From: Novosphingobium pentaromativorans US6-1
GTDB taxonomy: Bacteria > Pseudomonadota > Alphaproteobacteria > Sphingomonadales > Sphingomonadaceae
NCBI RefSeq assembly: GCF_000767465.1
Contig: NZ_CP009293.1
Span: 248,001 to 312,000, forward strand
DNA length: 64,000 nt
Direction of reading: 5' to 3'
The position numbers and the translations under genes were made by a program. The notes under the pieces were generated by a model. The model searched no databases. It saw nothing but the letters and a program-made list of their open reading frames with translations, and was not told the DNA's origin. This document shows, one piece after another, positions 32,718-50,373 of the stretch. Positions within the stretch are counted from its first letter, which is position 1. Every line of letters begins with the position of its first letter.

Positions 32718-33182
32718 TCAGGCAGCGGTAGGATCGGGCGCTTCGGCGTTGGTGCGGATGGGGACGGGCCGGCGTATCCGATCGAGTTCCTGCACAAGTT
32801 GCGCGTTACGGCGTTCGAGCCGCTCCGCGCGCTGCTCGGCTTCAACAGCGCGGTTCAGCAGGCTGGCATTATGTGTCGCGAGGGCGATGTTCTTGGCTAT
32901 CGCGTCATGAAGAGTGGCGCGTGTGCTGTCGGCCTCGCCGGCGGCCGTTTCAGTGGTACCCTCACGTTGCGATTGAATGTCGCGCAGGGCGTCGAGAACG
33001 TCGCTATGGTGCGTATAGATGATGTTGCGGCCGACCCCGGCTGCTCGTGCGAGACCGGCGACCGTTGGCGCGGCGGACGGGTCTTTGGCGAGGAGGGCAA
33101 GGGCTTCGCGCAGGCGTGCATTGGTGTTCGCCCGGCGACGGGCCTGCGGGGTGGATGGGTCAGATTCAGACGTCACCAGCAT
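32718..33182 (-). CDS. tnpC: TnpC-like transposition accessory protein
   Basis: 154 residues from the ATG at 33182; an in-frame start at 33266 would overlap the recombinase by 100 bp. A helix-turn-helix-like stretch (TVAGLARAAGVGRNIIYTHH) precedes a long coiled coil (LLNRAVEAEQRAERLERRNA QLVQELD). This organisation matches the small third protein of Tn554-like transposons, which influences frequency and orientation of transposition. It is the gene nearest the left end. Confidence 0.7.
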   Translation of the reverse strand: MLVTSESDPSTPQARRRANTNARLREALALLAKDPSAAPTVAGLARAAGVGRNIIYTHHSDVLDALRDIQSQREGTTETAAGEADSTRATLHDAIAKNIALATHNASLLNRAVEAEQRAERLERRNAQLVQELDRIRRPVPIRTNAEAPDPTAA

Positions 33183-34968
33183 TTCCTTCGTCGAGCCGGT
33201 CAAGGATACGGTGGGATTCCTGGATGCGGGCTTCGGCAAGTGCTCGGCTCTCGTGATCGAGGTCATCGCGCTGGATCAATGCGGTGTTCCGTTCAAGGCG
33301 CGCTTCCCAGACCGGCCTATGCCGGTCAGTCACGGCGAAGTTGGCGCAAGTCGAGCAGGTGCTTTGTGTGCGAAGCACCGGGTTCGGCTCGCGCTCGCCG
33401 CCGAGGCAAGCGGAGGTCTCCCGGCGGTAGAGGCAGTAGCCCCAGTCGCACACGCCGAGGCGCATATCCGTTTCGGCGAGGATCTCGGTGATATAGCCAT
33501 CGACGTCGCCCGACCGAGTGCGCCCGTGGAACGGCGATCGCTCGGACAGCATGACGCCCGCCTTCCCGGCGACGTTCGGCGCCAGGAGCAGGTCTTCCAG
33601 CGCCTTGCGGGTTTTTTCGGCGGCCTGGTCGTCGATCAGCTCGGCAAGTTCGAAGTCTGTGCCCACATAGGCCCGGTCGGTCATCGCGCGATGGACATGG
33701 CCGAGATGGCGTTGCAGCGCCGTCAGGCCGGTGCGGTCGCGCCGCCCGATGAACCGCGAGAACGTCTTGCGACCCTGATAGGTGGTCAGGTGCCAGGTGC
33801 CGCCTTGGTGTTCCGGCAAGGCAAGGAACGGCGCAAGTCGTTCGTTCAAGCGGATATTGACCATAGGTGATCGCAGTCGAGCGACGGGCATCATCGTCGG
33901 AAGCGGCGAGCGTCCCCGGCCGAGCTGGTGGAGCCAGAGGTTCCTCTTCCCGCTAAGTTCGCGAAGCGGAGCGGAGAGACGTTCGAGGATGTGGATCGCC
34001 CGCTGGACCGGCTCGGGCGCGAGCCAGCGATGGATGTCCCCATGTTCCGTCAGCGACGTCTTCGTGATCGTGCCGACCAGATAGACGTGTTCCTCGCCGT
34101 CTCCATCGGCCGCGCGCCGTTCGAGGCAACCCTCCTCAAGCCTGAGTATTTCGGAGGCTCTCGCGCCAACAAGATAGGCGATGACGACGAAGCAGGCGTC
34201 GCCAAGGCGATCGAGCATGAACGTCAGGCGGCGCAGCGGCCATTCCGGATTCGGATACATGTCCGCGTAGGGGCATGGCTCAGACAACATGGCGCGTCTG
34301 ATATGCCAGTGGAGCCTTCGCCCCTGATGCTGTGGTCGGAACTGCTCATACAAATCTTCGAGACGGTCGCGCAGCGCGAGTATCTGTTCCGCTGGGTCAC
34401 CGAGCAGTTCCATAGCGCCGCTGATGAGAGGCACAGCGATCTCGTCGGGCGTATAGGGATGGCCGCCATAAGGTTTCCAGTGCCGCTTCTCGACCGAACC
34501 GGCGCGAGGCGGCGCCATCAGCGGCGCGTCGTCCAGCTTGTCGCGCTGCATGTGGAATGTGCGGATCGTGCCGAGATAGCCTTCGGCGGTGCTGAGGGAG
34601 AGCCGTGAAGCGTTCCTGCCGGGACGAGCGCGCAACATGGCCACGAACCGGTCGACGGCGTCTTGATCGAGATCCTTGAAGCATCGGACGTTCTCGACTG
34701 CCATCCATCGAACGAGGAAGCGGATGTGGCTGAAGTGGCCATCGACCGTTTCCTTGCGAAGTGGCATCCGCCCTTCGGGCGGATCGGCTTGCAGCGAGAG
34801 CAGGAACAGTTCGGCGGCGTGCCGGAGCGGCGTCCAATGATCATCCCCGAACCGGCTCCCGTCCGGCATTTCGAAGCCCCAGTTGAACGTCGTGGCGGCG
34901 GGGACGCCTTCGTTTCCGAGCAATGGCGCCGGAAGTTGGGTAAGCGTGGATGTCGGGACGGAGGCCAT
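33166..34968 (-). CDS. Large tyrosine recombinase (third of three)
   Basis: 600 residues. The catalytic domain shows Arg I in YLVGARASEILRLEEGCL, the HxxR-type box in HLTTYQGRKTFSRF, and the second His plus Tyr in LQRHLGHVHRAMTDRAYVG. The C-terminus has a Cys cluster (CDWGYCLY, then CSTCANFAV) typical of the large TnpB-like recombinases. It starts five bases after the preceding recombinase stop. With its two partners it would cut and rejoin the element ends by Holliday-junction chemistry. Confidence 0.85.
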   Translation of the reverse strand: MASVPTSTLTQLPAPLLGNEGVPAATTFNWGFEMPDGSRFGDDHWTPLRHAAELFLLSLQADPPEGRMPLRKETVDGHFSHIRFLVRWMAVENVRCFKDLDQDAVDRFVAMLRARPGRNASRLSLSTAEGYLGTIRTFHMQRDKLDDAPLMAPPRAGSVEKRHWKPYGGHPYTPDEIAVPLISGAMELLGDPAEQILALRDRLEDLYEQFRPQHQGRRLHWHIRRAMLSEPCPYADMYPNPEWPLRRLTFMLDRLGDACFVVIAYLVGARASEILRLEEGCLERRAADGDGEEHVYLVGTITKTSLTEHGDIHRWLAPEPVQRAIHILERLSAPLRELSGKRNLWLHQLGRGRSPLPTMMPVARLRSPMVNIRLNERLAPFLALPEHQGGTWHLTTYQGRKTFSRFIGRRDRTGLTALQRHLGHVHRAMTDRAYVGTDFELAELIDDQAAEKTRKALEDLLLAPNVAGKAGVMLSERSPFHGRTRSGDVDGYITEILAETDMRLGVCDWGYCLYRRETSACLGGEREPNPVLRTQSTCSTCANFAVTDRHRPVWEARLERNTALIQRDDLDHESRALAEARIQESHRILDRLDEGNAGDV

Positions 34969-34972
34969 GAGG

Positions 34973-36790
34973 CTATTCCAGGTCCGGCAGCGGCGGCAAG
35001 GCGGGTATGAGCCGTTCCGCGTCCGGCATCATTTCGGGCGGGAACGCCGGCAGCAGGTCTTGTGTCAGCACCCGAAGGCTGGGCGCATAAAAGAGGCTGA
35101 ACCGGATCGGGTCGATGCGTTCCCGCGCCGCTTGAAGATGCCTGGTGGCCTGGACGATGCGCGCCAGATGATCCGGGTCGATCGGGACGATCAGGCCCGG
35201 ACAGGCGAGGCAGCCTCCCAGTTTCGGGCACATGCGGCCAGGCCGCGCCTGCCCGCCGTCGACCGGTCGAAGGCAGTCGTGGCCGAACAGCGCCGTTACC
35301 CGGACGCTGGTATGCGGCCCTTGATGTTGCGAGTCTTGGCAGGGCGTCTCGCCGGTTACCCATGTGATCATCAGCGACTGGAGCCGAGCGATCGTATCGC
35401 GTTCGAGACGGCGGACCGCCTCGCCATCGACATAGATATCCGTGGTGACGATGCTGGCATGGTTGAGCACGGCCTTGGCCGCCATAATATCGCCCTGGGA
35501 CGCTGTGTAATGGGTGCTTGCCATGCTGCTGCGGAACAGCTTGGGCGAGAAGTCTGGAAGCAGGGCACGGGACTTGCCGGGATGGGTTTCGTTCCAGGAC
35601 GCGATCGCGCCATTATGCCGCTCGTAGAAGCGCAACATTGCCGATCGCAACGTGGCCTGCACGATATGTCCGGCGTGGTGCTCGCGCTCGAGGCGTCCTG
35701 TCGTCATGAGGAAGCGGTGGAGGAACAGCCGGTCGCGTTTGGACGGCTCCACATGCGGCAATAGGGGTGCCGTCATCGCAAGGAGCTTTTCGATCAGGCG
35801 CGGCGCCGCATAGGGTCGGCGATTGTCGAACGAGCGCCGTTGCATGCGCTTCACCTTACCACCGGCGCGGGGTTTTACCCACTCGACCATGACGCGATGC
35901 CGCTCGAGCGGATGCGGCACGAGGCAGTCCCGCTTGATCTGGCGCAGCGGACCGGCATTGGCCGCCGTCTGGATCAGCAGCACCATATAGAACGCAACCA
36001 GCGTGTCGGTCGTGAGGTGGAGATAACCCTCAAGCTCGCGGAACCCGCCTACCTCGGCGATCCTCTGCCGATCGGGCTTGTTAAGGTCCAAGCCTCGGTC
36101 GGTCGGCAGGATGCCGTGGCCAAGGCGGTGGAGCTTCCAGATCCAGCGATCCCGTTCGGCGGTCCGGCCGCCATGAAGCAGCACATTCGGAAGACCAACA
36201 ATAGCTTGCCCGTGCTGGAACTTGTCCCAGGCAGTGTCGATGTCGGCATAGCACACTGCCAGCAGCGCGCGCATTGCGCCGGGTGTCAGTCGGTCCTGCG
36301 GTAGCCGCTGGACGCCGGCGAGCGGGATCGGATTGTTGGGAACGGCAAAGCCCGATGCGAACAAGCCTGGATTGTCCGCGATCGCGCGCTTGAGCACCGG
36401 CCGGATCATACCAAGCTGACCGGATTGTGAGCGGACGCCACGCCTGCGCCCGTTGGTAGGCATCGCCAGCCAGGTGATGAACCGGCGGATCGTTGCCGTG
36501 TCGAGGTCTCCCGCGCGCCTGACACGCGCGTCCTCGCGCAGGAACCTCCCGAACACGCGCAGCGCGAACCAGCGCGCCGTGCGGGTCGCAGCGCTGGTTG
36601 CTACATCATGATCGCGGAAGGCCCGGGCGATGGCGGCGCCGATATCATCCGGCATTCCGAACAGCGCCGGGTCGAAGCGTTGGATGATCTTGCCCCATTC
36701 ATCGCGGAACTGGATTTCGGCGATCCCTGCGGGGTGGTCCGCTGGTGCCGGATCGAGTTTCAGCGTCCGATCGAGGCGGCCCCTAGCCAT
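34973..36790 (-). CDS. tnpB: Large tyrosine recombinase, TnpB-like (second of three)
   Basis: 605 residues. An N-terminal SAM-like DNA-binding region (WFALRVFGRFLREDARVRRA) precedes a catalytic domain with QTAANAGPLRQIKRD near the Arg I position and LFRSSMASTHYTASQGDIMA with VLNHASIVTTDIYVDGEAVR near the C-terminus. The nucleophile Tyr is in the last segment. The Arg I context (NAGPLRQI) is divergent. Cysteines (GRMCPKLGGCLACPGLIVP) form a C-terminal metal site. It overlaps tnpA by 8 bp. Confidence 0.82.
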   Translation of the reverse strand: MARGRLDRTLKLDPAPADHPAGIAEIQFRDEWGKIIQRFDPALFGMPDDIGAAIARAFRDHDVATSAATRTARWFALRVFGRFLREDARVRRAGDLDTATIRRFITWLAMPTNGRRRGVRSQSGQLGMIRPVLKRAIADNPGLFASGFAVPNNPIPLAGVQRLPQDRLTPGAMRALLAVCYADIDTAWDKFQHGQAIVGLPNVLLHGGRTAERDRWIWKLHRLGHGILPTDRGLDLNKPDRQRIAEVGGFRELEGYLHLTTDTLVAFYMVLLIQTAANAGPLRQIKRDCLVPHPLERHRVMVEWVKPRAGGKVKRMQRRSFDNRRPYAAPRLIEKLLAMTAPLLPHVEPSKRDRLFLHRFLMTTGRLEREHHAGHIVQATLRSAMLRFYERHNGAIASWNETHPGKSRALLPDFSPKLFRSSMASTHYTASQGDIMAAKAVLNHASIVTTDIYVDGEAVRRLERDTIARLQSLMITWVTGETPCQDSQHQGPHTSVRVTALFGHDCLRPVDGGQARPGRMCPKLGGCLACPGLIVPIDPDHLARIVQATRHLQAARERIDPIRFSLFYAPSLRVLTQDLLPAFPPEMMPDAERLIPALPPLPDLE

Positions 36791-37925
36791 CGGCGGGGAT
36801 CAGCTCACCATAAAGATAGGCGAGGCTTTCGCTCAGGTCGCGTTCGTGCAGTTCGAGACAGCGCAGATAGATTGCCGTCGTCGTGATCGAGGCGTGGCCG
36901 AGCAGCACCTGCACGACCTTGAGCGGGTTGAGATCGGGATTGGTGCGGGCTTGGATCTGAAGGCGGGCCAGCATCGCCATCGCGAAGGTGTGCCGCAGCC
37001 AGTGCAGCGTGCCCCGAAGTCCCGCGGCCGCAAACGCTTCCGCGAGCTGTGCCGTCAGGAGTTTCCGCGTGATGGCGCGGCCATGCTCGTTCAGCAGGAG
37101 ATTGGACGGCGCGCGATAGCCTCGGTCAGAACGGCGGATACGGCGGACGATCCGGGCGCGATCCTCGCCCACATACCAGTGCGTATGATCGAGCAGCCGA
37201 AGCGGCGGATAGACTGTCCTTGGCCGGTCTCCTTTGGTGATATGGAGCGGCACGCCGACAAGTGGATCGCTGTCGTGGTCAAGTGGCCAGCTATCCGTGA
37301 TCTGGTCGACGGCGAGCGCGCAAAGCTCCTTGCGGCGCAGCCCCGCCCCAAGCGCCCATTGCGCGGCAAGTCGAGCAGTAGGCCTGAGATGCGCGAACAG
37401 CCGAGACAGTTCGTCGGCGCGCAACGGTCGCGGAAGCTTCTCGGGAAGCGAGACGATCAGCTCGTTGACCTGGCGCCGTTGTAGTCCGGGACGATAGGCG
37501 CCGTCCAACATCAGCGTCATCTTCTCGGTCAACCGGAACGGGCAATGGTCGATCAGCTTTCGATCTAGGGCCCAGCTATAAAAGCGGCAGACGGTCGAGA
37601 CACGCGCATTGATCGTGGTCCGGGCGTAGGGCCGCCCGGTATGCGTGCTGGGATTCTCCAGCATCCGGTTGCGATAAGCGGCGATGACACGTTCGTCGGC
37701 TTCGCGCCATTCGATCCCTGATTGTTCGAGCGAGTCGAACCAGTCGTGGAGATGCTCGCCGTAGGTCCGCACGGTGTCATTGGCCTGGGCGCGACCGCTT
37801 AGCTCTGAGTGCCCCATGAGCCAGAGGAACGCCGGCTCGATGATCGCCATGTCGGCGTCAAACAGGATCGGGAAGCCGGCGGGAATGCCTGGCTCACCCG
37901 CCAAAGCCCGAATGATCGATACCAT
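36783..37925 (-). CDS. tnpA: Tyrosine recombinase, TnpA-like (first of three)
   Basis: 380 residues from the ATG at 37925 (a longer form from 37991 is possible). The full catalytic set is visible: Arg in GAGLRRKELCALAVD, Lys in HITKGDRPRTVY, HxxR in LHWLRHTFAMAML, His in LLGHASITTTAIYL and Tyr in the same box. An N-terminal SAM-like domain is present (VSTVCRFYSWALDRKLIDHC). It is the promoter-proximal gene of the transposition operon, which ends at the left terminus. Confidence 0.88.
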   Translation of the reverse strand: MVSIIRALAGEPGIPAGFPILFDADMAIIEPAFLWLMGHSELSGRAQANDTVRTYGEHLHDWFDSLEQSGIEWREADERVIAAYRNRMLENPSTHTGRPYARTTINARVSTVCRFYSWALDRKLIDHCPFRLTEKMTLMLDGAYRPGLQRRQVNELIVSLPEKLPRPLRADELSRLFAHLRPTARLAAQWALGAGLRRKELCALAVDQITDSWPLDHDSDPLVGVPLHITKGDRPRTVYPPLRLLDHTHWYVGEDRARIVRRIRRSDRGYRAPSNLLLNEHGRAITRKLLTAQLAEAFAAAGLRGTLHWLRHTFAMAMLARLQIQARTNPDLNPLKVVQVLLGHASITTTAIYLRCLELHERDLSESLAYLYGELIPADG

Positions 37926-38048
37926 GCTGTCGGAATCCCCTCGCGCTGAGATTCCGGCGAACAATAGCGCTATTTGGGAGCCGGCAGGCAAACGGTTCGG
38001 CGGATCGGTGTCTTTCCGGGATGCATCGCCGCCCGCCGTCGGCGCGGA

Positions 38049-39458
38049 TCACATGTAGAAGCTGTAACTGACCTGTGGTTTCTCGCTGACGCTCACATAT
38101 TTCATGATGTCGCCGATCTTCTTCGCGCATTCGAGCGTGATCGGGAGGCGCCCGTCCATCTGGGTGTTGTTCCAGTTCATCTTCGTCAGACCGAGGATCT
38201 CGTCGCAGAGGCTTTCGAGCGAAGAGTCCTGTTCATATACGGTGATTTTCAGAGGGCTCGGCACATACTGCCCAGGATAGGTCTTGTAGAAGTCGACCGT
38301 CCCGCGGGTATATAGAACGCCCTCCGTCTCCGAGATCGTCAGCAGTGTCCCCCGCTTCGGCGGATACTTCTTGTCGCTGAACAAACGGACGTCAGTGTCC
38401 GTGATCGCGACGAAATCCTTCGAACGGATGCCCTTCTCCTCCAGCGCCCGCAGGAAGCCCTTGCGCTCGCCGTCGCGGAAACGGCTCGACTTGTGAATCA
38501 CGATCCTGGCCGGCATGTGTTCCAATGCCCGGTCGTACTCATCAAGAGCGTCACGCAGGAGTTCGTAGGCCTGATCCTCGCTCAGATATGGATGACGGTT
38601 CTTCTTATCGATCGACACTGGGGTCCCGCGCAGGATGATCCCATGCCCGAACTCGTCAAAGACCTGTGCCAAGCTGGACGACACGGTCTCACCGTCACGG
38701 CTCTTGTAGAAACCAATACCGATGTAGCACGAGCGGAGCTTGGCTGTGTCCTCGACGAGCCGCCAAGGAATTGTTCGGTTGCCCTTGTAGTAAAGCGCCG
38801 TGCAGAAGTTCCATGCCTTCGTCGCTGGGTCCTGCTGTTCCCCGGCGAACTTGGTGATCAGGATGGTTTTCTCCCGCACCAGCTGAAGCGGCGTGCCGAG
38901 GTGCATGCACTTGGCTTTCAATATCCGCCGGAAATTATGCTCGAGCTCGCTCTCATCCTTCGCGTCGCCAGTGGCCGAGATGGTCACGGAATCAAACATC
39001 TCGTTCGGCAATACGCAGACGATGACGTCAACCGACCTGTTCTCCGCCAGGAAGCGGATCTGCTCATAGTAGAGCTCAACAGCCCTCTCTACCCGGTCGG
39101 CGCGGGAGGCAAGTTTCACGATTCCGGTGATATCCGACTTCTTTAGTGTCCGCGTATACTGGGGCGAGTTGATCAGCCGGGTTAGGAAGCCGTAGCTCTG
39201 GTTCACCCCGCCGAAGCCACGGAACAGGTTGAGAAGTTGCGATTCCTTCTTCCGTTCGATGCCGTCCCGGCACCTCTCGAGCCACTCGTCCAGCAGATCA
39301 ATGCCCTCGCCTCGACCGACGACCCCGACCCTTAGTTCCGTCCTGCGCAGTTCATCGCGCTTGTCATACACGCCCATGTGCTCGATCCCCGTACGCGGGC
39401 ATATGTGGGTGCCGGTGCCGAACTCGAGCATCGGCTCCGCGAGAGTCGTCAGCCTCAT
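38049..39458 (-). CDS. Short prokaryotic Argonaute (MID-PIWI), SPARDA type
   Basis: 469 residues: only MID and PIWI domains, no N or PAZ. The C-terminal ITLECAKKIGDIMKYVSVSE after GLTKMNWNNTQMDGRLP is the PIWI end. The catalytic tetrad is lost: the first Asp position reads YIGIGFYKSRDG (Gly at ~248), and IVIHKSSRFRDG has Ser where Asp is expected (~323). This is normal for short pAgos, which bind a guide and target but use a partner as effector. It overlaps the APAZ partner by 4 bp (ATGA), giving the usual stoichiometric operon. Upstream and downstream genes belong to a transposon. Confidence 0.9.
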   Translation of the reverse strand: MRLTTLAEPMLEFGTGTHICPRTGIEHMGVYDKRDELRRTELRVGVVGRGEGIDLLDEWLERCRDGIERKKESQLLNLFRGFGGVNQSYGFLTRLINSPQYTRTLKKSDITGIVKLASRADRVERAVELYYEQIRFLAENRSVDVIVCVLPNEMFDSVTISATGDAKDESELEHNFRRILKAKCMHLGTPLQLVREKTILITKFAGEQQDPATKAWNFCTALYYKGNRTIPWRLVEDTAKLRSCYIGIGFYKSRDGETVSSSLAQVFDEFGHGIILRGTPVSIDKKNRHPYLSEDQAYELLRDALDEYDRALEHMPARIVIHKSSRFRDGERKGFLRALEEKGIRSKDFVAITDTDVRLFSDKKYPPKRGTLLTISETEGVLYTRGTVDFYKTYPGQYVPSPLKITVYEQDSSLESLCDEILGLTKMNWNNTQMDGRLPITLECAKKIGDIMKYVSVSEKPQVSYSFYM

Positions 39459-40900
39459 GCCGCCATCCCTTCGTCGGTCGCATCGTCATCATAGTCGGCG
39501 ATAGAGACGTCGCCTTCGTCAAGATCGTCATCGACCTCGTCGCCAACGTCGAATTCGAGGAGCGTCCCGAAGCTCAACGGCGCCTCGTCCAAGCCTTCCT
39601 CACTGCTGGTGTTGGAGAGGAAGTAGGCGACGAAACGAACCGCGTTCCTGACGCTGAGATTCAGTTCAAGCCGCTTCTGCTTCGAGAGCAACTTGTCGTG
39701 CCAGTTCGAGCGCTTGAAACCGTCATAGGAATAATACCAGCTCGGCACGATCTGCGAGAACCAGGTCCCGCCTAGATTTGAAAACGTCAGATCAAACGAT
39801 AAGTGCTGGTGATGCGCGATCTTGTCAGGGTCCTTCTTCTGATACTTCACTACGTACACGGTGCGTGTCGCGCTGGCCTTGCCGACCCAGGCCTCCTTGC
39901 GAAGCTCCTGCCCATCCTCGCCGGGCACGAAGAAGAAGAAGCCGTCCTTTGGATGGGAGCGCACGTTGCGCGCCTTCAGCATCTGCCGCGTCTCGGCCCA
40001 CATGAGTTGCTTGAGAATGTTCACGTTGTCCGGCTCGTCAGAGTCGGCCAGATCGGATATCTCCAGCCGTTCGATCGTGCCCTCGTCCACGATGCTGATC
40101 AGGCCGCTGGCCTCAATATCGGTGAATGAGAACAGCTTGTTGTTGTAACAAACCCATGCGTCCGTCGACACATCGTTCAGAAGGAGCGCCATCTTCACGA
40201 CAGACCTTCGACTCTTTGCGTAGCCCTTGTAGTTCAGTTCCGCCTTGGCCTGCGCGATCACCGCCTTGTCGTCGATCGTCAGCTCCGCAACGTAGACTGC
40301 CTCGGGCAGCCGGATCTCCTGTAGGTTGGTTGTGATCGCAGTTGGCGCCTCAACCGTCTCCGATCTCATGCTGATGAAGGCATCCACCTCGCCGAGGATG
40401 TGCTTAAGCTCCGAGAGCACGCGCTCTTGCGCTGTCAGACGCAGTCCGGTCACCATGCGGAGGATGTCGCTAAGGTCGATGATGTGCTTTGCGCAGTTGA
40501 ACGAGAAATCCTCCGTCAGCAGGGCATTTACGGCGCTCTGACTGTAGGATGCCTGCTTCTTGCCCAGCATGAGTACGTATAGCTCATCGAAGGTGTTATA
40601 ATACGACCGGCTCATGAATTGCCCGATCGTGAACTTCACCTTCTCCAGCCCGATGGTAGAAGTGACTTGGAAAGCGACACGGTCATGGTCGTCGCCGAGG
40701 TCGATGCCGGGGAAGTTCTTCTGCTTCCGGTTGAGATTGATGAGGTGCGGCAGGTTGAAGACCGACTTCAGGATCGGGATGAATGCATCTTCGAGCGCGA
40801 GGTTGATGTCGGTCCGCCCCTGCGCGGTCGCCAGTTCTACCTGTACGACAATACGGCTCACTACGTCGCGGAGCTGATTCTCAACCTCAAGCTGCCTCAT
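39455..40900 (-). CDS. Argonaute partner: SMEK/DREN-type nuclease fused to APAZ
   Basis: 481 residues from the ATG at 40900 (AGGAG upstream; a longer start at 40957 is less likely). Residues 60-90 (NFPGIDLGDDHDRVAFQVTS T...EKVK) give a PD-(D/E)xK-like site with Asp67 and Gln78, as in SMEK-domain nucleases. The C-terminal ~270 residues are APAZ: SFDLTFSNLGGTWFSQIVPS, YYSYDGFKRSNWHDKL and LSVRNAVRFVAYFLSN. In SPARDA systems (known from Crenotalea and the sphingomonad Novosphingopyxis) the guide-loaded pair assembles on target DNA and then degrades DNA and RNA indiscriminately, killing or arresting the cell. Confidence 0.88.
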   Translation of the reverse strand: MRQLEVENQLRDVVSRIVVQVELATAQGRTDINLALEDAFIPILKSVFNLPHLINLNRKQKNFPGIDLGDDHDRVAFQVTSTIGLEKVKFTIGQFMSRSYYNTFDELYVLMLGKKQASYSQSAVNALLTEDFSFNCAKHIIDLSDILRMVTGLRLTAQERVLSELKHILGEVDAFISMRSETVEAPTAITTNLQEIRLPEAVYVAELTIDDKAVIAQAKAELNYKGYAKSRRSVVKMALLLNDVSTDAWVCYNNKLFSFTDIEASGLISIVDEGTIERLEISDLADSDEPDNVNILKQLMWAETRQMLKARNVRSHPKDGFFFFVPGEDGQELRKEAWVGKASATRTVYVVKYQKKDPDKIAHHQHLSFDLTFSNLGGTWFSQIVPSWYYSYDGFKRSNWHDKLLSKQKRLELNLSVRNAVRFVAYFLSNTSSEEGLDEAPLSFGTLLEFDVGDEVDDDLDEGDVSIADYDDDATDEGMAA

Positions 40901-41649
40901 ACCGCCGCGCTCCTCCCAAGATGGCCTCCATGGAGTATGGGAACGCACCAAGAACATTGCAAGCGGGCGATAGCTGATGACGGGCCTTTGAAGCCTGAAG
41001 AGCCTTCAACGCCCGCTCTCCGCTAAGCTCAGATGCCTCCGAGTGCTGAGCGGTGGGGAATAAACCGGGATCGCTGGGAGGCAGGCCACCTCATATGGAA
41101 CGAAAGGTAACAAATCAGATGGGTGACCTCTGCAGATTTCAGCATGCGCCAGCACTTTGGCGGGGCGACTGTGCCCAAAAAGCCATCGCCTATTACAACA
41201 CAGAACAGGTATGTGTATGGGCATGGGCATGGGCATGGGTAGCGGGATCGAATCGACGCGCGCGCCTCTTTTTCAGAAGGCTCGTAACACACTGTTATTA
41301 TTTAGAAAAAAATCATCCTTTTATAAGTCGATGTTGCGGAAGTATTAATTCTCTCCCCCTCGACGCGATCGGCCCAGAATGCGAATTATTTCCAAATAAT
41401 CTCATCCATAATGGATGAATATTCCCACGAATATGTGATAAAATTAATTTATGCAATAAAATCTTATTTTGATTTCAATACATCCATTCGTAATTACCAA
41501 ATTACGCCGATTTTACTTATGCGTGAAATGAACATCCCAATATTTACAGTGTGTTGGCAAATATTTATCCAAATTCATCGCGGTTGATGGCATGATGGAC
41601 TCCTTCAAAATAGCGTGTATTATGGCGATGCATCGAAAGGAGTATCCCT
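40901..41649. promoter_or_regulatory. AT-rich divergent control region between SPARDA and the RiPP cluster
   Basis: About 750 bases without a gene. 41290-41620 is strikingly AT-rich against a GC-rich background and contains small perfect hairpins (CATCCA-TAA-TGGATG at about 41403; CGTAAT-TACCAA-ATTACG at about 41491). A TGGGCA tandem repeat lies at 41219-41243. TATTAT occurs just upstream of the precursor gene. It must hold the promoters of both cargo units; exact boxes are unclear. Confidence 0.5.
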
Positions 41650-41832
41650 ATGTCGATCGATACCGAAGTTCGGGCGCCGGAAGCTAGCCCCGAAATCCGC
41701 ACCGCCCTCCTGCGTGAACAGCCTCTGAATCCGGCGCTGCGCCGGCTGAAGGGTCGCGTTCTCGCCGAAGCGGAAGCAAGCGAAGTCATCACGAGCTACG
41801 ACCGGATGCATCACCGGCACAATCGCTCCTAA
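41650..41832 (+). CDS. RiPP precursor peptide (60 aa)
   Basis: AAAGGAG lies 7 bases before the ATG. The leader is acidic then basic (MSIDTEVRAPEASPEIRTAL, then NPALRRLKGRVLAEAEASEV) and the C-terminus ITSYDRMHHRHNRS is rich in His, Arg, Asn and aromatic Tyr, unlike a folded protein. It ends 12 bases before a radical SAM maturase, so it is the obvious substrate. His/Tyr/Asp/Arg in the tail are possible sites for cyclophane crosslinks, beta-hydroxylation and Arg-to-Orn conversion; which residues change is unknown. Confidence 0.8.
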   Translation: MSIDTEVRAPEASPEIRTALLREQPLNPALRRLKGRVLAEAEASEVITSYDRMHHRHNRS

Positions 41833-41844
41833 GGACTTCCTCGC

Positions 41845-43980
41845 ATGACCCCCGCCAGGATCACCTCGTTCCTGGTCAAGGTCGCGTCGCGTTGCAATCT
41901 CGATTGCGATTATTGCTACGTCTACCACCACGCCGACCAGAGCTGGCGCGCCATGCCGAAGCTCTTGTCGGCGGAGGACCGGTCTTGTTTCGCGACCCGA
42001 CTAGGTGCCTATACCGCGCAAGCGGAGATCACGCACTGCGCGGTCGTATTCCACGGCGGCGAACCTTTGCTTGCTGGTGCGGATAAGCTGGCGGCGTTTG
42101 CCGCCCAAATCCGTGCCGCGACAACCGCGAAGGTTGATGTCGGGCTCCAGACCAACGGGCTGCTGCTTGACGATGCCGCGCTCGATCAACTTGAGGCAGC
42201 GGACATCGGTGTCTCGCTGAGCTTGGATGGGCCGCGCGCGGCACAAGACAAGCATCGAACGACGCGCAAGGGGCGCTCGAGCTTCGATAAGGTTCTCGCT
42301 GCGCTGGAGCGGCTCAAGAAGCGCCCCAGGCTATTTGCAGGCGTCATCGCCGTCATCGATACCGCGACCTCGCCGGAGGATCTCTTCGCCTTCTTCGACG
42401 CGCATCATCCGCCGAATCTCGATTTCCTGCTACCCGACGCCCACCATTTGCGCCTCCCGCCAGGCCGCGCGCTCGATCCCTCGCTCTATGAGCGCTGGCT
42501 GATCGGCGCATTCGATCTGTGGCTCGACCATTATCCGCATTTGCCGGTGCGAACCTTTGAAGCTTTGCTCGATGCCGTTTCCGGGCTGCCTTCCCGGACT
42601 GACGCATTTGGCTTCGGGGACGTCAGCCTTATCTCGATTGAGACCGACGGAAGCTATCACGATCTCGACGTGCTCAAGGTGACCCAGGACGGAGCGACCA
42701 GCCTTGGCGGTTCGGTACGGGATACGCCGATCGCAGACATAGCGACCTCGCCCCGGATCGCAGCGCATCGCGCGCTGCTCAGCAAAGCAGGACTATGCCG
42801 CGAGTGCCAAGCCTGTCCGATTGTCGAAATCTGCGGGGGCGGATCGCTCCCCCACCGCTTTGGCACCGACGGCTTCAATCATCCGACCGTTTATTGTCGT
42901 GAGATGCTCGCGCTGGTCGAACATGCGCGGGTCCGCCTCGCGGAACTGCTCTTGCCCTCGGATGATGCGCTGGATTCGGCCCTGCCCACTGGCACCGACC
43001 TAGCAGCGTTCGATCTCGCGGAGAGTGCCACGGCGATGATGGACGATCTCTGCGCCGGTGCGCGGTCAGCCGCGCGTGACGCGCTGCTGGGGACGGTCCG
43101 CGAGTTGCGTGCCACCCACCCCGAACTCGGTCCGGCGATCACGGCGTTCGATGCGCTGTCCGTTTCCGAGCAGGAAGAACTGGCGAGTGCTCCGGGCGCC
43201 ATCGCGTGGCGGCACACACTCGACATTCAGACCGCCGCCTATGAAGTTCAGGCCGTCGACGGCGCAGCAATCCAAGCCGACGCATCCTATCTGCAGGACT
43301 TGCTTGCCCAGCCATCACGCGACGGTTCCGGCTTTCAGATCGGTTTCCCCGATCCCTGGCTTCGCATTCCCTTTGGCGAGGCAATCTATTTTGAGGATGA
43401 GGCGACCACCGCTAAGGTCAAGCCGATCGTTGAGGAGGCGCTGCAGATCATTGAGCGCTGGCGCCCGGCAATGGCGCGCGAGATGAGAATGGCTTGCGGC
43501 GCAATCCAATTTATCCGCGATCCGCTTGCGCATCCCGACAAGATCGTTTCGTTCAGCGACAACTCGGTCCCAGGTGCTCTCTATGTGTCGGTCCTGCAGG
43601 GCGACGATCCGATCGACGCCTACGATCTCGCCGACTCGTTGTTGCACGAGCACCGGCACCAGAAACTCTATCTCCTGGAGCGGCTTGCGCCGACCGTGGC
43701 TTCCACCGCGGCGCTGGTCTCCTCGCCGTGGAGAGAGGATCTTCGCCCACCTTCAGGCCTGCTTCACGCCGTGTTCGTCTTTGTCGAATTGCGGCGTTTC
43801 TGGCTTCATGTCAGGGACGAAGGGCCTGCCCGCCTCCACAATCGGGCGATCAATCAGCTCCGTGACACCGAGGAGAATCTTCGCGACGCATTCGTGACCC
43901 TCGATAGCTGTCCGCTGACCCCACTGGGACGCGAACTGGTTGCTGTCCTCAAAGCCTCCGCCGAACGCGAATTGGCCTGA
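41845..43980 (+). CDS. Fused radical SAM/SPASM - HExxH peptide maturase (FxsB-like)
   Basis: 711 residues. The radical SAM cluster is C17-x3-C21-x2-C24 (SRCNLDCDYCYVYHH), with the SAM-binding HGGEPLL. A SPASM domain follows (C318, C321, C324, C330: CRECQACPIVEICGGG). From about residue 370 a helical C-terminal domain contains HEHRH at 601-605 (DSLLHEHRHQKLYLL), the HExxH signature of 2-oxoglutarate-dependent peptide beta-hydroxylases once taken for metallohydrolases. From memory, fused proteins of this type have been shown to form cyclophanes and beta-hydroxylate. AAGGA precedes the ATG; the next gene overlaps the stop by 1 base. Confidence 0.9.
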   Translation: MTPARITSFLVKVASRCNLDCDYCYVYHHADQSWRAMPKLLSAEDRSCFATRLGAYTAQAEITHCAVVFHGGEPLLAGADKLAAFAAQIRAATTAKVDVGLQTNGLLLDDAALDQLEAADIGVSLSLDGPRAAQDKHRTTRKGRSSFDKVLAALERLKKRPRLFAGVIAVIDTATSPEDLFAFFDAHHPPNLDFLLPDAHHLRLPPGRALDPSLYERWLIGAFDLWLDHYPHLPVRTFEALLDAVSGLPSRTDAFGFGDVSLISIETDGSYHDLDVLKVTQDGATSLGGSVRDTPIADIATSPRIAAHRALLSKAGLCRECQACPIVEICGGGSLPHRFGTDGFNHPTVYCREMLALVEHARVRLAELLLPSDDALDSALPTGTDLAAFDLAESATAMMDDLCAGARSAARDALLGTVRELRATHPELGPAITAFDALSVSEQEELASAPGAIAWRHTLDIQTAAYEVQAVDGAAIQADASYLQDLLAQPSRDGSGFQIGFPDPWLRIPFGEAIYFEDEATTAKVKPIVEEALQIIERWRPAMAREMRMACGAIQFIRDPLAHPDKIVSFSDNSVPGALYVSVLQGDDPIDAYDLADSLLHEHRHQKLYLLERLAPTVASTAALVSSPWREDLRPPSGLLHAVFVFVELRRFWLHVRDEGPARLHNRAINQLRDTEENLRDAFVTLDSCPLTPLGRELVAVLKASAERELA

Positions 43981-44987
43981 TGCCCGACAATGTGATCACC
44001 CTTCCTTTCGATCGGCTTCCGGGAACAGCAGCCGAGCGTCATGCTACGCTGCGCGACTATTTTTGTGACAAGGATGCCTGCGTTAAACGGACTACCGGGG
44101 GCTGGGAGCTGACGCTCGGTTGGCCCAATGATGCCGCGCGGCATGTCGATCCCAAATTGTCCGCCGGACTCGCGTGGTGGGGTGAGGGCCTTGAGCGTTC
44201 CGATATGGCGCTCTCGATGCGCCGTAGCGGTCGCATTCTCAGTACGCTCTACGACAGTTGGACGCTTCTCAGCTGGAGCGAATGGCTGGAGCGGGCCGGC
44301 CTACAGGCTGCGCCGATCGTGGTGCTCCATGTTGACGATCACCGCGATCTGGGCGCGCCGCGGCTGTTCGTGGAGCAGGCGGGTTGGCGCGATCCTATGA
44401 CTGGCCATCTCGTCGACCTTGCCCAGCCTAATAGCGTTGCAAGCGCGATACGAAGTGGTGCCATCGGCATGGGCAGCTTTCTAACGCCGTTCCTCCACGC
44501 ATTCCCGACCACCGAGGTTCGCCATCTTTGCCAGCCGCCGAAAGCGGTCGATACTAGAGACTTTCGTGTCGAGCTGACCGAGGAGCAGGACACGCTGCTC
44601 GACCCTGGCGCATTGCGCCCCGCTGTCGATCTCGTTCCGGTCGCGCGCGAGACCGGTCCGGGGCGATATCGCATCACGCCTGACCTTGGAGATTGGCTGC
44701 AAGGGATCGGCCCTGGACCGATCCTGCTTCACATCGACATGGACTATTTCAACAATCGCTATGATGGCGACAGCGACTGGCTCGACCGGCGCCGAAAGCT
44801 CGACCCTTCGCTGGCATCGGTGCTTGATAAGGTCGATGCCCTTGCCGATGCGCTGCACGGCGCCAGGCTCGCATCGCGGCTCGAAGATGTCGTAATTGCC
44901 TATTCGCCGGGCTTCTTCCCCAGCGAATATTGGCAGGCGGCGGACGAGCGTTTGCGCGCGGCCTTTGCGCGGCTAGATGTCCGTTAA
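43980..44987 (+). CDS. UPF0489/arginase-like protein, possible peptide arginase
   Basis: 335 residues. Two metal-site-like motifs, HVDDHRDL (117-124) and LLHIDMDYFNNRY (250-262), fit the ureohydrolase/UPF0489 fold. Relatives encoded beside RiPP precursors (OspR in landornamide, as I recall) hydrolyse Arg to ornithine within peptides. Arg residues in the precursor tail make the same reaction plausible here. Translation is coupled to the maturase (TGATG), and the GNAT gene overlaps its end by 11 bp. The assignment rests on these motifs, not on full-length similarity. Confidence 0.6.
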   Translation: MPDNVITLPFDRLPGTAAERHATLRDYFCDKDACVKRTTGGWELTLGWPNDAARHVDPKLSAGLAWWGEGLERSDMALSMRRSGRILSTLYDSWTLLSWSEWLERAGLQAAPIVVLHVDDHRDLGAPRLFVEQAGWRDPMTGHLVDLAQPNSVASAIRSGAIGMGSFLTPFLHAFPTTEVRHLCQPPKAVDTRDFRVELTEEQDTLLDPGALRPAVDLVPVARETGPGRYRITPDLGDWLQGIGPGPILLHIDMDYFNNRYDGDSDWLDRRRKLDPSLASVLDKVDALADALHGARLASRLEDVVIAYSPGFFPSEYWQAADERLRAAFARLDVR

Positions 44988-45468
44988 GCCCTCATCCGCC
45001 AAGCAGAGGCAACGGCGCCGAAGGGCCAGCCCGACGCCGAAGCCGCCTCCTGTCGTTGCGCATTCGCCGCTCGGGCCGATCGATCCGGAGAAAGTACGAT
45101 TGGTCCCGAGCAAAGGCACGCCCAAACGCGGCGGAGGCCCAGGTGGCGAGGCCTGGGCTATCGAGGCCGACGGCGAGCGCGCGGGAACCGTCTTCATCAA
45201 CCTGATTGAAGAACCCCCGATCGGAAAACATGCCTCGCTCCAGATTTTTCTGAACCGGGAAAGCCAGGGGCGTCAGATCGGCCGTCTCGCCTATCGTGCC
45301 GCGTGCGATGCAAGCGAATATAATGTCGTCTACGCCCATATGCGCAAATCCAACATCGCTTCGCGGCGCGCCGCCGAAGAAGCCGGCTTTGCGGACGTGA
45401 CGCCAGCAGGTCACTCTCAGTTGATTATGAAGCATGTTCGTCGTGAAGGGTCGTCGACCGGAGGCTGA
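44977..45468 (+). CDS. GNAT-family N-acetyltransferase
   Basis: 163 residues. The N-terminal ~25 residues are basic and disordered (KQRQRRRRASPTPKPPP). The fold follows: AGTVFINLIEE, the acetyl-CoA loop region NRESQGRQIGRLAYRAACDA, then YAHMRKSNIASRRAAEEAGF. Within a RiPP operon it could acetylate the N-terminus or a side-chain amine such as ornithine made by the preceding enzyme; this is inference. It could also confer self-immunity, as some acetyltransferases do. Confidence 0.85.
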   Translation: MSVKPSSAKQRQRRRRASPTPKPPPVVAHSPLGPIDPEKVRLVPSKGTPKRGGGPGGEAWAIEADGERAGTVFINLIEEPPIGKHASLQIFLNRESQGRQIGRLAYRAACDASEYNVVYAHMRKSNIASRRAAEEAGFADVTPAGHSQLIMKHVRREGSSTGG

Positions 45469-45500
45469 GCGCGACCGCACCGGAATTCTGAAAGGTCCGA

Positions 45501-46598
45501 ATGCGCGCCTATATCGTCATGCCCTGCCTTAATGAGCAACGAGAGCTAGTGGCGACCTGCGCTTCGCTCGGCTTTGGCCCGGGCGCGGCTACGGATAAGC
45601 CGGACGGCACGCTGGTCCTTGTCGACAATGGATCGACGGATCGCACGTTCGAACTCTCGCGCGATATCCAGCAAACCTCGCCACCCGGTACCGTGGAACT
45701 CACGTACGAACCCGAGCGCGGATACGTTCCCCCGCGCCGGCGCGGCATCGATCTCGTCGCACAGTTGGCGCTCGAGGAAGGGGTGGTCGCCGAGGATGTC
45801 CTGATCCTGCAAGCGGACGCCGACACACAATATCAGCCCGGCTATGTTGCCGAGATGCGCGCGGCGGGTGAGACGGCGGGCCCGCAGACGCTGCTCGAAG
45901 GACGAGCGGAGGCCGCTCCCGAGTTCGCCCTCGAGCATTCGGCATATCAGGCGCTTTGCGAACAAGTGAGTGCCTCGGTTCGCGCGCTCTGCGTCGCCGA
46001 AGCGGATGATGTCATCGTCGACGACAAAATCTGCGCCTTCCGTCTCGCCGACTATCGCGTGTGGGGCGGACACGAGCGGGAGTATGATCCCCATGGTGAG
46101 GAGATCCACGCCGAAACCTCGCGCCTGTTTCTGCGGGCCAAGTCCTACAACGCCAGAAAGATCATAGTTGAGAGGGCGACAGCCCAGCCTTCGCGCCGAA
46201 AGTTATACGAGAGCCCTGGGCTCTATTTCGCGACCTCTGGGTTCCCACACGGTGCTGATTGGGTGGCGCGGTGGCGCCGCGACTATGCCGGGATCGACAG
46301 TTTCGAAGCATTGCATCAATCACATTCCCCAGTGCACGAAGCGATATTGCTCCGCCAATGCCATGACCTGATCCTATTTGGTGTCTTGCCGCTATGGGTC
46401 GGTCACGCGCTTGGGACCCTGGCTACGACCGATGCACTGAGAGCAAGGTTCGCACCTTTATTGAGGCTCTTGCCGCCATTGACGCGCGACCAGCTACGCC
46501 ACACACCCGGGCTTGTTCTCCACACAGCATTGCAATTGATCGATACACAATTGCCGCAACTGAAGAGCTATCTGGCGGAAAATACAAACCTTGGCTGA
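45501..46598 (+). CDS. Family 2 (GT-A) glycosyltransferase
   Basis: 365 residues. AYIVMPCLNEQRELVATC and LVLVDNGSTDRTFELSRD are the nucleotide-sugar loop, and VLILQADADTQYQPGYVAEM carries the DxD-type metal site. No membrane segments are evident, so it is probably soluble. A ribosome site (GAAAGG) precedes the ATG. As last gene of the RiPP operon it may glycosylate the peptide or a downstream carrier; O-linkage to a beta-hydroxyl made by the HExxH domain would be an attractive link, unproven. Confidence 0.85.
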   Translation: MRAYIVMPCLNEQRELVATCASLGFGPGAATDKPDGTLVLVDNGSTDRTFELSRDIQQTSPPGTVELTYEPERGYVPPRRRGIDLVAQLALEEGVVAEDVLILQADADTQYQPGYVAEMRAAGETAGPQTLLEGRAEAAPEFALEHSAYQALCEQVSASVRALCVAEADDVIVDDKICAFRLADYRVWGGHEREYDPHGEEIHAETSRLFLRAKSYNARKIIVERATAQPSRRKLYESPGLYFATSGFPHGADWVARWRRDYAGIDSFEALHQSHSPVHEAILLRQCHDLILFGVLPLWVGHALGTLATTDALRARFAPLLRLLPPLTRDQLRHTPGLVLHTALQLIDTQLPQLKSYLAENTNLG

Positions 46599-46752: not shown

Positions 46753-46823
46753 GTGAAGGGAGGACAGGCCGGGCGCCGCCAGCTTTTTGGATTAGCGCGT
46801 CGCCCGGCCTGTCCTCCCTTCAC
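46753..46823. repeat. Perfect 23-bp inverted repeat near the right transposon end
   Basis: Left arm 46753-46775 (starts GTGAAGGGAGGACAGGCC), right arm 46801-46823, loop 25 bases with CTTTTTGG. It lies 155 bases after the glycosyltransferase stop and 29 bases inside the right terminus. It may be a terminator or a recombinase-binding palindrome. Confidence 0.8.
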
Positions 46824-47603: not shown

Positions 47604-48383
47604 TCAGGTGGCGATGGGCAGAAGCTTCGGATAGGGCAGCCGCGGGAGGTCACGGCCCTGACGGCGCGCGGCGCGCGTGAGTTCGAAACAATAAGTGAAG
47701 AGGCCCGAATGCCGATGGCGCGTGAGGAGACCTTCAGTCTGGAGGCGTTGGAGCCAGGCTTCCGGTCTTTCGCGAAGAGCGGGAGCGGGAAGACCGAGCC
47801 GGACAATCTGGTCGATGGCTCCGTCCATTCCGCGCTCGCGGAGGCGGATTTTCGACAGCGTACGGTCGGAAATCGTGCGATCGCCAGTCCGAAGGACGAT
47901 ACGCGGACGCGTAGTTCCGCGGTGCGCTCCCGACAAGGCGGCGTAAACCCGGCCAATATGGCCAGCCTCGGGGTCGCTATAGGAGACGACAGCCTCGATC
48001 GCGGGGCGGGCCTCTCGAAGAAGCCGGAACGCGCGCGCGCAAAAAAAGCTCTCGCCGTTCTGGGGGACGCTGTCGAGAAGGATCAGGCGAGCGAGGACAG
48101 TGCCTTTGGTAGGGTCCAGAAAGCCGGTGTGTCGGGTGATGACGGCGTCAGTCGCCGGCACCGCGAAGACGCAGACGCCCTCGAGAACGGCGCGGCGTCC
48201 GAAAAGACCGATGGCGACTTGCGCAGCTGGATAGTTGGGCAGATAGTGATGCTCGGCGATGAAAGCGCGCGCCATGCGGTGCTCGATGAGATCGACCGAA
48301 TAGGCTCTGGGGTTGATGGTGCGGAAGTCTGTTGCCCACAAGGCGCGTCTTTCCCGCCAGCGCTGGCTGCGTGAGGTTTCCAT
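47604..48383 (-). CDS. Mom-like GNAT-fold DNA modification protein
   Basis: 259 residues. IEHRMARAFIAEHHYLPNYP, then GLFGRRAVLEGVCVFAVPAT and the GNAT-like LDPTKGTVLARLILLDSVPQ and VVSYSDPEAGHIGRVYAALS, match proteins annotated as Mom-family adenine methylcarbamoylation proteins. Phage Mu Mom converts adenine in DNA to a carbamoylmethyl form that resists restriction. A Mom-like enzyme on a conjugative element would protect incoming DNA. The adjacent PAPS-reductase-like gene, now broken, may have acted in the same pathway. Confidence 0.75.
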   Translation of the reverse strand: METSRSQRWRERRALWATDFRTINPRAYSVDLIEHRMARAFIAEHHYLPNYPAAQVAIGLFGRRAVLEGVCVFAVPATDAVITRHTGFLDPTKGTVLARLILLDSVPQNGESFFCARAFRLLREARPAIEAVVSYSDPEAGHIGRVYAALSGAHRGTTRPRIVLRTGDRTISDRTLSKIRLRERGMDGAIDQIVRLGLPAPALRERPEAWLQRLQTEGLLTRHRHSGLFTYCFELTRAARRQGRDLPRLPYPKLLPIAT

Positions 48384-48645: not shown

Positions 48646-49143
48646 ATGAGCGACTTGTCGGAAGGCGATAGCACGCTGATTACCCTGACCGCCGACATCG
48701 TCGCGGCTCATGTGACGAACAACAGCGTCGCGGTCTCGGATCTGCCGCTATTGATTCAGAATGTTCATGCGGCGCTGAGCAATCTCGGCAAAACCGAGGC
48801 CGCAGCGGTAGTGAAGCATGAACCGGCCGTTTCGGTTCGCGCCTCGGTGAAGCCGGACTATATCGTCTGCCTCGAGGACGGTAAAAAGCTCAAGATGCTC
48901 AAGCGTCACCTGATGACACACTATCAGATGACGCCGGCTGACTATCGTTCGAAGTGGAATCTTCCGGCCGACTATCCGATGGTCGCGCCCAATTATGCCG
49001 AGCAGCGCCGTACGCTCGCAAAAAGCATCGGTCTCGGCCGCAGGCCCAAGACGGCCAGCGCAGCCGCGCCGGCAAAGACGGCGAAAGCCGCCCCCGCTCG
49101 TCGCGGACGCGCAAAATCAACCGAAGGGCCGCCTGCCCAATAA
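48646..49143 (+). CDS. MucR/Ros family transcriptional regulator
   Basis: 165 residues. The Ros-type zinc finger is clear ([36 protein letters not shown]), preceded by a helical oligomerisation region and followed by an Ala/Pro/Lys tail ([15 protein letters not shown]). MucR proteins bind AT-rich DNA and silence many genes in alphaproteobacteria, rather like H-NS. Here it could regulate the element or the AT-rich cargo promoter region. It diverges from the Mom-like gene. Confidence 0.92.
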
Positions 49144-49569: not shown

Positions 49570-50373
49570 TCAAAACAGGGTAAACTGTTCTCCAATCGTT
49601 CGGGGCTTTGCGTCCGGCGGTGGCGTGCAAGGAGATGAGCGATCCCCGGCCCTCTGTGGCGCGGAACGCGGCGGCGGCTCGACTACGCGAGGCTGATTTG
49701 CAAGCTTCGCACTCCAACCTCCCAGAATGTGAGCCGGGGTGAACCAATGTTCGCGAACGTCGTTGCTCAGGGAGTTGCCGACCATGAGATGGGCCGGGAT
49801 GTGCAATAGCGAGAACTGGATATAGGCCATGTGCACCGCGCGCGGGTCTATATCGACCGCTGTCACGTGGAGATGGCGTTGGTAGTTGATGTCGGCTGCG
49901 AGCATTGCCTGGGCAAGCGCGATGACCATGGCGCCGGCGCCGCAGGCGGGCTCCATCGCGCGGACATAGCCCTTGTCGGCGATCAGCGCCCGGGCGCTCT
50001 GGGCATCGCCGAGCGTGACCTCGGCCATCATCTGGCAGACCGGATAGGGCGTGAAGAACTGGCCCCGGCTTTTGTTGTGGATCTCAAGCGCGGTGAAGAT
50101 GCTGCCCAGAACATCGCCCGGCGCGGTTTCCAGCGCCATGGTGATCTCGCCCAGGATACGCGGGAACATCTCGATCGTAGGGCGATCATAGCGGCCGACG
50201 ATCTGGAGATAGCGTGCCTCCCGATGGTCGCGCGAACGGATGTCGACGCTGTTCGAGATGCTGATCGCGATGAGCTCCATGCAATCGGAGAACAGCGTGT
50301 AGCGATCATGGCGATGGCCATGGGCCTCGAACAGCTTGAGGACGTTCCTGATGTATCGATCCTGGGGCGGCAT
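49570..50373 (-). CDS. N6-adenine DNA methylase-like protein lacking the NPPY motif
   Basis: 267 residues. The region RGQFFTPYPVCQMMAEVTLG and the SAM site MEPACGAGAMVIALAQAML followed by VTAVDIDPRAVHMAYIQFSL match HsdM-type N6 methylases. Where NPPY/F should follow, the sequence reads HLMVGNSLSNDVREHWFTPA with no catalytic motif, so it may bind SAM and DNA without methylating. A specificity subunit is not visible. Similar truncated methylases are common on conjugative elements and are thought to be antirestriction or accessory proteins. Confidence 0.75.
   Translation of the reverse strand: MPPQDRYIRNVLKLFEAHGHRHDRYTLFSDCMELIAISISNSVDIRSRDHREARYLQIVGRYDRPTIEMFPRILGEITMALETAPGDVLGSIFTALEIHNKSRGQFFTPYPVCQMMAEVTLGDAQSARALIADKGYVRAMEPACGAGAMVIALAQAMLAADINYQRHLHVTAVDIDPRAVHMAYIQFSLLHIPAHLMVGNSLSNDVREHWFTPAHILGGWSAKLANQPRVVEPPPRSAPQRAGDRSSPCTPPPDAKPRTIGEQFTLF

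Follow-up and report, generated by a model that had tools for sequence, protein, structure and literature searches.

In a 64,000-nucleotide (nt) stretch of Novosphingobium pentaromativorans US6-1 DNA (hereafter the window), we found five adjacent genes that form a recurring unit for a ribosomally synthesized and post-translationally modified peptide (RiPP). The genes encode a YhhA-type precursor, a maturase in which a radical S-adenosylmethionine (SAM) domain is fused to an HExxH domain, an arginase-like protein, a GNAT N-acyltransferase and a glycosyltransferase (GT). The YhhA/YhhB centre of this cluster is known, whereas its arginase-GNAT(-GT) extension was not found in the literature searched. 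We lean towards the view that the cluster makes an Arg-cross-linked peptide, which would then be made ornithine (Orn)-bearing and acylated. The chemical steps and the function of the cluster given below are predictions.

Composition of the cluster

All five open reading frames (ORFs) are present at positions 41650..46598 on the same strand (+), and they overlap or lie at most 32 nt apart (12, -1, -11 and 32 nt, in gene order; Table 1). These positions and gaps bear out the first-pass annotation, which had described a one-strand, five-gene cluster with overlaps or short gaps. Its naming of the precursor, of a fused maturase with HEHRH, of the GNAT and of the GT2 agreed with the NCBIfam and Pfam cut-offs that these proteins pass.

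The precursor scored above the NF041705 YhhA cut-off (60.9 bits vs 36), and a Pfam search of it gave no family match. The maturase scored above the cut-offs of NF041707 (YhhB; 498.7 bits vs 445), TIGR04269 (FxsB; 545.4 bits vs 370) and TIGR04267 (HExxH hydroxylase; 142.5 bits vs 40). Its residues 4-368 match the solved ChlB structure 9gm3 (E 9.9e-146) and its residues 385-703 the solved ChlH structure 8s5f (E 1.7e-73), each over its length. Both domains are fused in one protein and their motifs are intact (radical SAM CNLDCDYC; HExxH as HEHRH), as expected of a fused radical SAM/HExxH peptide beta-hydroxylase. Judged by these profile scores, the precursor and maturase are members of the described YhhA/YhhB cyclophane RiPP family. 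We had also considered the precursor as an undescribed class, which the YhhA score rules out.

The GNAT passed two Pfam cut-offs (PF13302, 30.7 bits vs 25.4; PF00583, 29.2 bits vs 20.7) and has a basic, Pro-rich N-terminal extension. A phmmer search with it gave weak matches only, the best (E 0.014) to spermidine acetyltransferase. The GT passed the GT2 Pfam cut-off, and its predicted model (predicted local distance difference test score, pLDDT, 94.0) has a GT-A fold. A sequence search of the PDB at E 0.1 gave no match for the GT, which is assigned by fold.

Table 1. Features of the cluster and its surroundings in the window
Feature	Position	Strand	Description
YhhA-type precursor	41650-41832	+	60 amino acids (aa); tail ITSYDRMHHRHNRS; predicted core: C-terminal tail
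Fused maturase	41845-43980	+	711 aa; radical SAM/SPASM (YhhB) cyclophane synthase domain, residues 1-368; alpha-ketoglutarate HExxH hydroxylase domain, residues about 385-703
Arginase-fold protein	43980-44987	+	335 aa; HVDDHRDL, HIDMDY; predicted peptide arginase (Arg to Orn)
GNAT N-acyltransferase	44977-45468	+	163 aa; predicted acylation of the Orn (or Lys) side-chain amine
GT-A fold GT (GT2-like)	45501-46598	+	365 aa; predicted accessory sugar-adding step
Short prokaryotic Argonaute (Piwi)	38049..39458	-	PF02171, 32.1 bits, cut-off 28.9
SMEK-domain Argonaute-associated protein	39455..40957	-	PF21941, 148.5 bits; PADLOC Aga_REase-PNTD1-PNTD2, E 4.3e-188
Tyrosine recombinase-like ORFs	33166-37991	-	three consecutive large ORFs (402, 605, 600 aa); resemblance to a recombinase in trio, by eye
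Inverted repeat	46753-46823		27 nt, 96% complementary, 17-nt loop; possible terminator or element end
Mom-family DNA-modification protein	47604-48383	-	
Ros/MucR regulator	48646-49143	+	
N6-methylase-like protein	49570-50373	-	

Recurrence of the gene set

The arginase-like sequence was the sole query in a scan of 84,980 species genomes. The scan matched 59 stretches, 33 of which encoded a relative, giving 32 loci. YhhB was present in 32/32 loci (partial in L007) and YhhA in 31/32, while the HExxH domain was found in 29/32, the GNAT in 28/32 and the GT in 20/32 (truncated in L007). Since the linkage holds in 32/32 loci found through one gene, we rejected a chance row of genes as an explanation. 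This supports the first-pass proposal of a RiPP pathway, here found to recur as a unit, in which a fused cyclophane-forming and HExxH maturase is joined by an arginase-fold protein, a GNAT and a GT-A protein. The annotation had named the lack of a conserved precursor beside homologous maturases as an outcome against it, and a precursor is there in 31/32 loci. Its inclusion of the GT stands in part: the GT-A fold recurs, but because the gene was found in just 20/32 loci we treat it as an accessory to what is otherwise one pathway.

Three of the five cluster genes keep their adjacency in bacteria of four phyla. Most loci belong to Pseudomonadota; the others include a cyanobacterial locus (L031), two Pedobacter loci (L033, L034) and three clostridial loci (L036-L038). 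The taxonomy of the loci was taken from record titles, and the cyanobacterial and clostridial records are metagenome bins. We found the arginase-like protein and the GNAT fused in two database proteins (P0113, P0115) and in L047, a Rhizobium plasmid protein whose record calls it a GNAT only. The maturase gene of L014 is interrupted by an insertion element. We read this split, the stops in the arginase-like genes of L011 and L014 and the missing precursor of L007 as marks of decay.

In the window's taxonomic family, the arginase-like gene was found in 5/298 genomes and YhhA in 3/298 (window's genome included). Two of those five arginase-like genes are only about 33% identical and lie away from YhhA. 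A YhhA match was found in 4/385 genomes of the wider class (2 over the cut-off) and in 2/398 genomes of the phylum (1 over the cut-off), the window's genome included in both. Matches below the cut-off in G327 (21.3 bits) and G867 (23.3 bits, stop in frame) were excluded, and that in G615 (33.0 bits, below cut-off) was retained as L055, one of four arginase-free loci. Arginase-like homologues about 33% identical also lie at L043 and L044 in another conserved gene set, with a radical SAM protein, an 800-aa protein, and hydroxylase-like and oxidoreductase-like genes; this set is perhaps another pathway.

Further genes accompany part of the loci. A DUF483-like small protein (below cut-off) with the motifs GYPxCC and SH(I/V)PCxxxC is encoded in 15/32 loci (L008-L011, L013, L015, L016, L018, L019, L026, L031, L032, L036-L038) and is not in the window's cluster. 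A methyltransferase-like protein, below the Pfam cut-off, is encoded in 6/32 (L017, L021, L024, L025, L027, L030) and is fused to the GNAT in L021. The clostridial loci are without HExxH and GNAT, and carry an extra radical SAM gene between YhhA and YhhB that is related, below cut-off, to HxsC4/HxsC. His-Xaa-Ser system genes adjoin the YhhA cluster in L047 (annotated hxsB) and, by eye, in L011 and L014.

At L007/L046 (Sphingomonas sp. SRS2, another genus) lies a copy that is about 97-100% identical at the protein level, lacking the precursor along with the beginning of the maturase, and with the GT cut. Judged from these identities and losses, the copy is a case of recent transfer and decay.

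The precursor core and its conservation

The tail pattern YxRMHx(R/K)HxRS was found in 32/32 precursors (the window and 31 loci). It occurs in five variants, for which there are 31 different coding sequences. Compared with the window's tail, identity ranges from 0.27 to 0.91 at third codon positions and from 0.64 to 1.0 at first and second positions. What is held fixed in the core is the peptide, not the DNA. Neither this near-invariant core nor the defence-island setting described below was in the first-pass annotation.

The core contains three aromatic-x-Arg motifs (Tyr50-Asp-Arg52, His54-His-Arg56 and His57-Asn-Arg59) and its gene adjoins a YhhB gene, as in YhhA/YhhB RiPPs. YhhB was reported to form Tyr C3-Arg C-beta and His C2-Arg C-beta bonds (PMC11002830), and by analogy the three motifs fit these published cross-links. 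The sole replacement of a tail Arg is by the amine Lys, in L025.

Position 55 is His in 29/29 precursors with an HExxH maturase and Asn in 3/3 without one. Asn is likewise found at the equivalent position in an arginase-free Vibrio locus that has no HExxH, and each of the arginase-free loci with HExxH (L045, L054, L055) has at least one precursor with His there. For ChlH, hydroxylation of His and Asp in a cyclophane peptide was reported (PMC12636437). The covariation and this precedent point to His55 as a candidate hydroxylation site of the HExxH domain.

Four YhhA loci (L045, L049, L054, L055) are without the arginase-like gene, and no arginase-like match below E 0.8 was found in them. Their precursor tails, which include YDRTHNRHNRGQ, YNRTHNRHNR, YNRTYHRHNR and FDRTHHRHNR, have Thr for Met and no terminal Ser. 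A YhhC oxygenase is annotated in L049, and the other three have similar-looking ORFs. Judged by these tails, Met after the first Arg and a terminal Arg-Ser are marks of the arginase-bearing type.

The arginase-like protein and the proposed pathway

The predicted fold of the arginase-like protein is closest to the peptide arginase OspR, and its assignment is a prediction from fold and profile comparison with OspR. Identity to OspR in structure alignments is about 15-18%, and the structural matches below OspR include deacetylases and amidinohydrolases of many kinds. We aligned 65 sequences (46 of 120 listed homologues, 583 having been found; 18/32 loci; the window). Five of the six metal ligands are kept in 65/65: D119, H121 and D123 (DXHXD), and D253 and D255 (DxD). 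The one annotated record consulted labels proteins of this arginase-fold family only as GNAT or hypothetical protein.

We propose the following order of steps. The radical SAM domain would close three-residue rings at Tyr50-Arg52, His54-Arg56 and His57-Arg59, each by linking an aromatic carbon with Arg C-beta, the type of bond published for a different YhhB. The HExxH domain would beta-hydroxylate His55, and the arginase-like enzyme would turn one or more of the ring Arg residues into Orn. It may depend on prior cross-linking, in the way that some known arginases act only after another modification; KgrD and PbsE were reported to act only on a pre-modified peptide (PMC12703449). The GNAT would then acylate the Orn side-chain amine, as in selidamides, which carry acylated Orn (PMC12703449). 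In part of the family, the GT would add a sugar.

If the arginase acts on Arg already ring-tied at C-beta, it would offer a route to cross-linked Orn and a tool enzyme for peptide chemistry. This reading, if true, would also explain an arginase-fold family that is missed by Pfam and annotated as GNAT or hypothetical in that one record.

Several observations weigh against this pathway. The arginase-like protein misses the cut-offs of PF12640 (13.8 bits vs 27) and NF052474 (17.3 bits vs 350). The sixth metal ligand, OspR His12, is Asp (D92 in the window) in 62/65 sequences and Glu in 3/65, an equivalence taken from a constant 80-residue offset with OspR numbering from PMC10028609, and the peptide-arginase motif EEH(N/H)EAF with its first His ligand is lacking. 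The three core Arg residues are also kept in the four arginase-free loci; their conservation therefore says nothing about arginase action, and we discarded it as proof. The three clostridial loci retain the arginase-like gene without a GNAT, in L011 and L014 this gene is interrupted by an in-frame stop, and L007 has no precursor. L045, which has HExxH, also has a precursor with Asn at the position-55 equivalent. The covariation of His55 with HExxH involves few independent losses (one clostridial group and the Vibrio locus), and for this reason we grade the His55 link as a lead.

Since the curated cut-offs are missed and the motif-1 His is lacking, the reaction could differ from that of an arginase. 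The protein could carry out another hydrolysis (deacylation or amidine hydrolysis) or bind the cross-linked Arg uncut, while the GNAT acts elsewhere, e.g. on the N-terminus after leader removal. The Asp or Glu at the His12 position, the scores against the curated arginase models and the deacetylases and amidinohydrolases among the structural matches all speak for this alternative. We consider it unlikely, and we keep Arg-to-Orn conversion, with OspR as the nearest fold, as the predicted step. Because the sixth-ligand His is replaced by Asp or Glu, we did not file the protein as a member of the PF12640/OspR family. The first-pass reading of it as arginase-like/UPF0489 is thereby retained for the predicted fold and dropped for the family.

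Comparison with known systems

The cluster shares its centre with YhhA/YhhB triceptides (NF041705/NF041707; YhhABC loci, e.g. Vibrio echinoideorum p1): the window's precursor and radical SAM domain pass the cut-offs, and the aromatic-x-Arg core fits the published Tyr-Arg and His-Arg cross-links (PMC11002830). Compared with the arginase-free loci, the window type is extended by genes for the arginase-like protein, the GNAT and the GT. Both halves of the maturase are similar over their full length to ChlB and ChlH, with the HEHRH motif in common. ChlBH was reported to hydroxylate its own peptide at His and Asp, and the accessible text of that report mentions no arginase or GNAT (PMC12636437).

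The arginase-like protein has the same fold and the same DXHXD and DxD ligands as OspR and its relatives (PF12640), but differs from them in its low identity, in the missed Pfam and NCBIfam cut-offs and in Asp/Glu for the motif-1 His. OspR-type precursors were described as NHLP, Nif11, SCIFF, SCCRRSCN and DD(I/V)LF types (PMC12703449), whereas the window has a cyclophane precursor. The arginase-like and GNAT pair, present in 28/32 loci and sometimes fused, resembles that of selidamides. The precursor class differs, being YhhA and not NHLP or Nif11, and a radical SAM-HExxH maturase is present.

The biphenomycin clusters (pbs/bpm) also combine an arginase and an HExxH-type hydroxylase in a cross-linked RiPP, and there too PbsE was reported to act only on the pre-modified peptide (PMC12257519). 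In contrast to the window, they use MNIO and B12-radical SAM biaryl chemistry on an FHAFRF motif and have no YhhB.

The first-pass annotation knew of no described pathway with this combination. This no longer holds for the precursor and maturase, which are covered by NCBIfam and by the reported Arg cross-links (PMC11002830), and it still holds for the extension. We found no literature pairing YhhA/YhhB with an arginase, a weak negative from a searched collection without most subscription papers. The terms triceptide, cyclophane and arginase occurred together there in the biphenomycin work and in a lanthipeptide review. The function of YhhA-type peptides was not stated in the literature consulted.

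Defence-island setting and possible function

To compare the neighbourhoods with background, we removed the cluster genes and took the remaining 146 neighbour ORFs of 170 aa or more at 20 loci, and 157 ORFs of a distant stretch on the same contig, called with a crude ORF caller. The 20 loci are those on contigs >100 kb (21 in all, L038 left out), and 12/32 loci were not included. A strong match was a PADLOC E-value up to 1e-67. This threshold was chosen after seeing the results; one PADLOC list gave the best 25 of 158 families and is complete to about 3.5e-67, and this limit led to the threshold. In the PADLOC group counts (158 and 43 families vs 11 and 3), one protein is counted under many overlapping models.

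Strong matches were found at 7/20 loci and in 1/20 control regions (Fisher two-sided p 0.044, one-sided 0.022). With the threshold chosen afterwards, location near defence genes thus recurred above background. The strong neighbours are IetS (L012), E1-E2 (L014), PtuA (L015), Argonaute (L019), Drt4 and SduA (L021), PDC-S06 and PDC-S11 (L025) and LmuB (L034); the strong control match is DruE (L057). Weaker matches (1e-25 to 1e-26) were found in L020, L022, L024 and L032, and in control regions for mad2, mad3, mad8 and Vsr. Next to YhhA, the same PtuA model also has matches in G287 and G555 (2/4 genomes searched). In L015, about 84 nt separate the end of its HNH partner from the YhhA gene that follows in the same orientation.

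In flanks of roughly 8 kb, from the same crude ORF caller, the only families common to at least 4 loci were cluster genes, antisense ORFs, radical SAM and recombinase. Since no other family recurs in at least 4 loci, this family-sharing comparison revealed no common exporter, protease or immunity gene in these flanks.

The defence-island habitat suggests where a function may be sought. An intracellular block of phages was reported for lanthipeptides encoded in defence islands of Streptomyces (PMC12360287). As here, those RiPP clusters lie beside anti-phage systems; their chemistry and hosts are unrelated, and activity was shown there, whereas here we have genes alone. That the cluster is an intracellular anti-phage system of this kind is a doubtful but tenable idea. 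It draws on the excess of strong PADLOC matches over controls, on a PtuA of one subfamily adjoining YhhA clusters in L015, G287 and G555, and on the Streptomyces precedent. Against it, the argument is one of guilt by association with a threshold fixed after the results were seen, one control also holds a strong defence gene (DruE), and the PtuA model is absent in 2/4 genomes searched. A more specific version strikes us as unlikely. In it, the cluster would serve as chemical immunity inside the cell, as reported for the Streptomyces lanthipeptides but with cyclophane-ornithine chemistry: a single near-fixed peptide, cross-linked at its Arg residues and then made Orn-bearing and acylated, would be retained in several phyla and would move between defence islands as a means of stopping phages.

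Quite possibly, the cluster instead travels as cargo on mobile islands and has an everyday secreted role, in competition, in signalling or, through the His-rich core, in metal binding; the defence genes would then be mere neighbours, since such islands gather both. Lanthipeptide clusters were reported to co-locate with defence and gene-exchange functions with an anti-phage role unproven (PMC12715929). Recombinases flank the window's cluster, three loci are on plasmids, and 13/20 loci have no strong defence neighbour. That the roughly 8 kb flanks revealed no shared exporter, protease or immunity gene speaks against such cargo, and a near-invariant core, unlike most warfare peptides, counts against it too. 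The core, the lack of these shared genes and the defence surroundings raise the question of whether YhhA-type peptides protect against phages.

In the window itself, the Argonaute/SMEK pair is divergent from the cluster and lies 692 nt away. The recombinase-like ORFs lie beyond this pair. On the other side, the GT gene is followed by the inverted repeat and then by the Mom-family, Ros/MucR and N6-methylase-like genes (Table 1).

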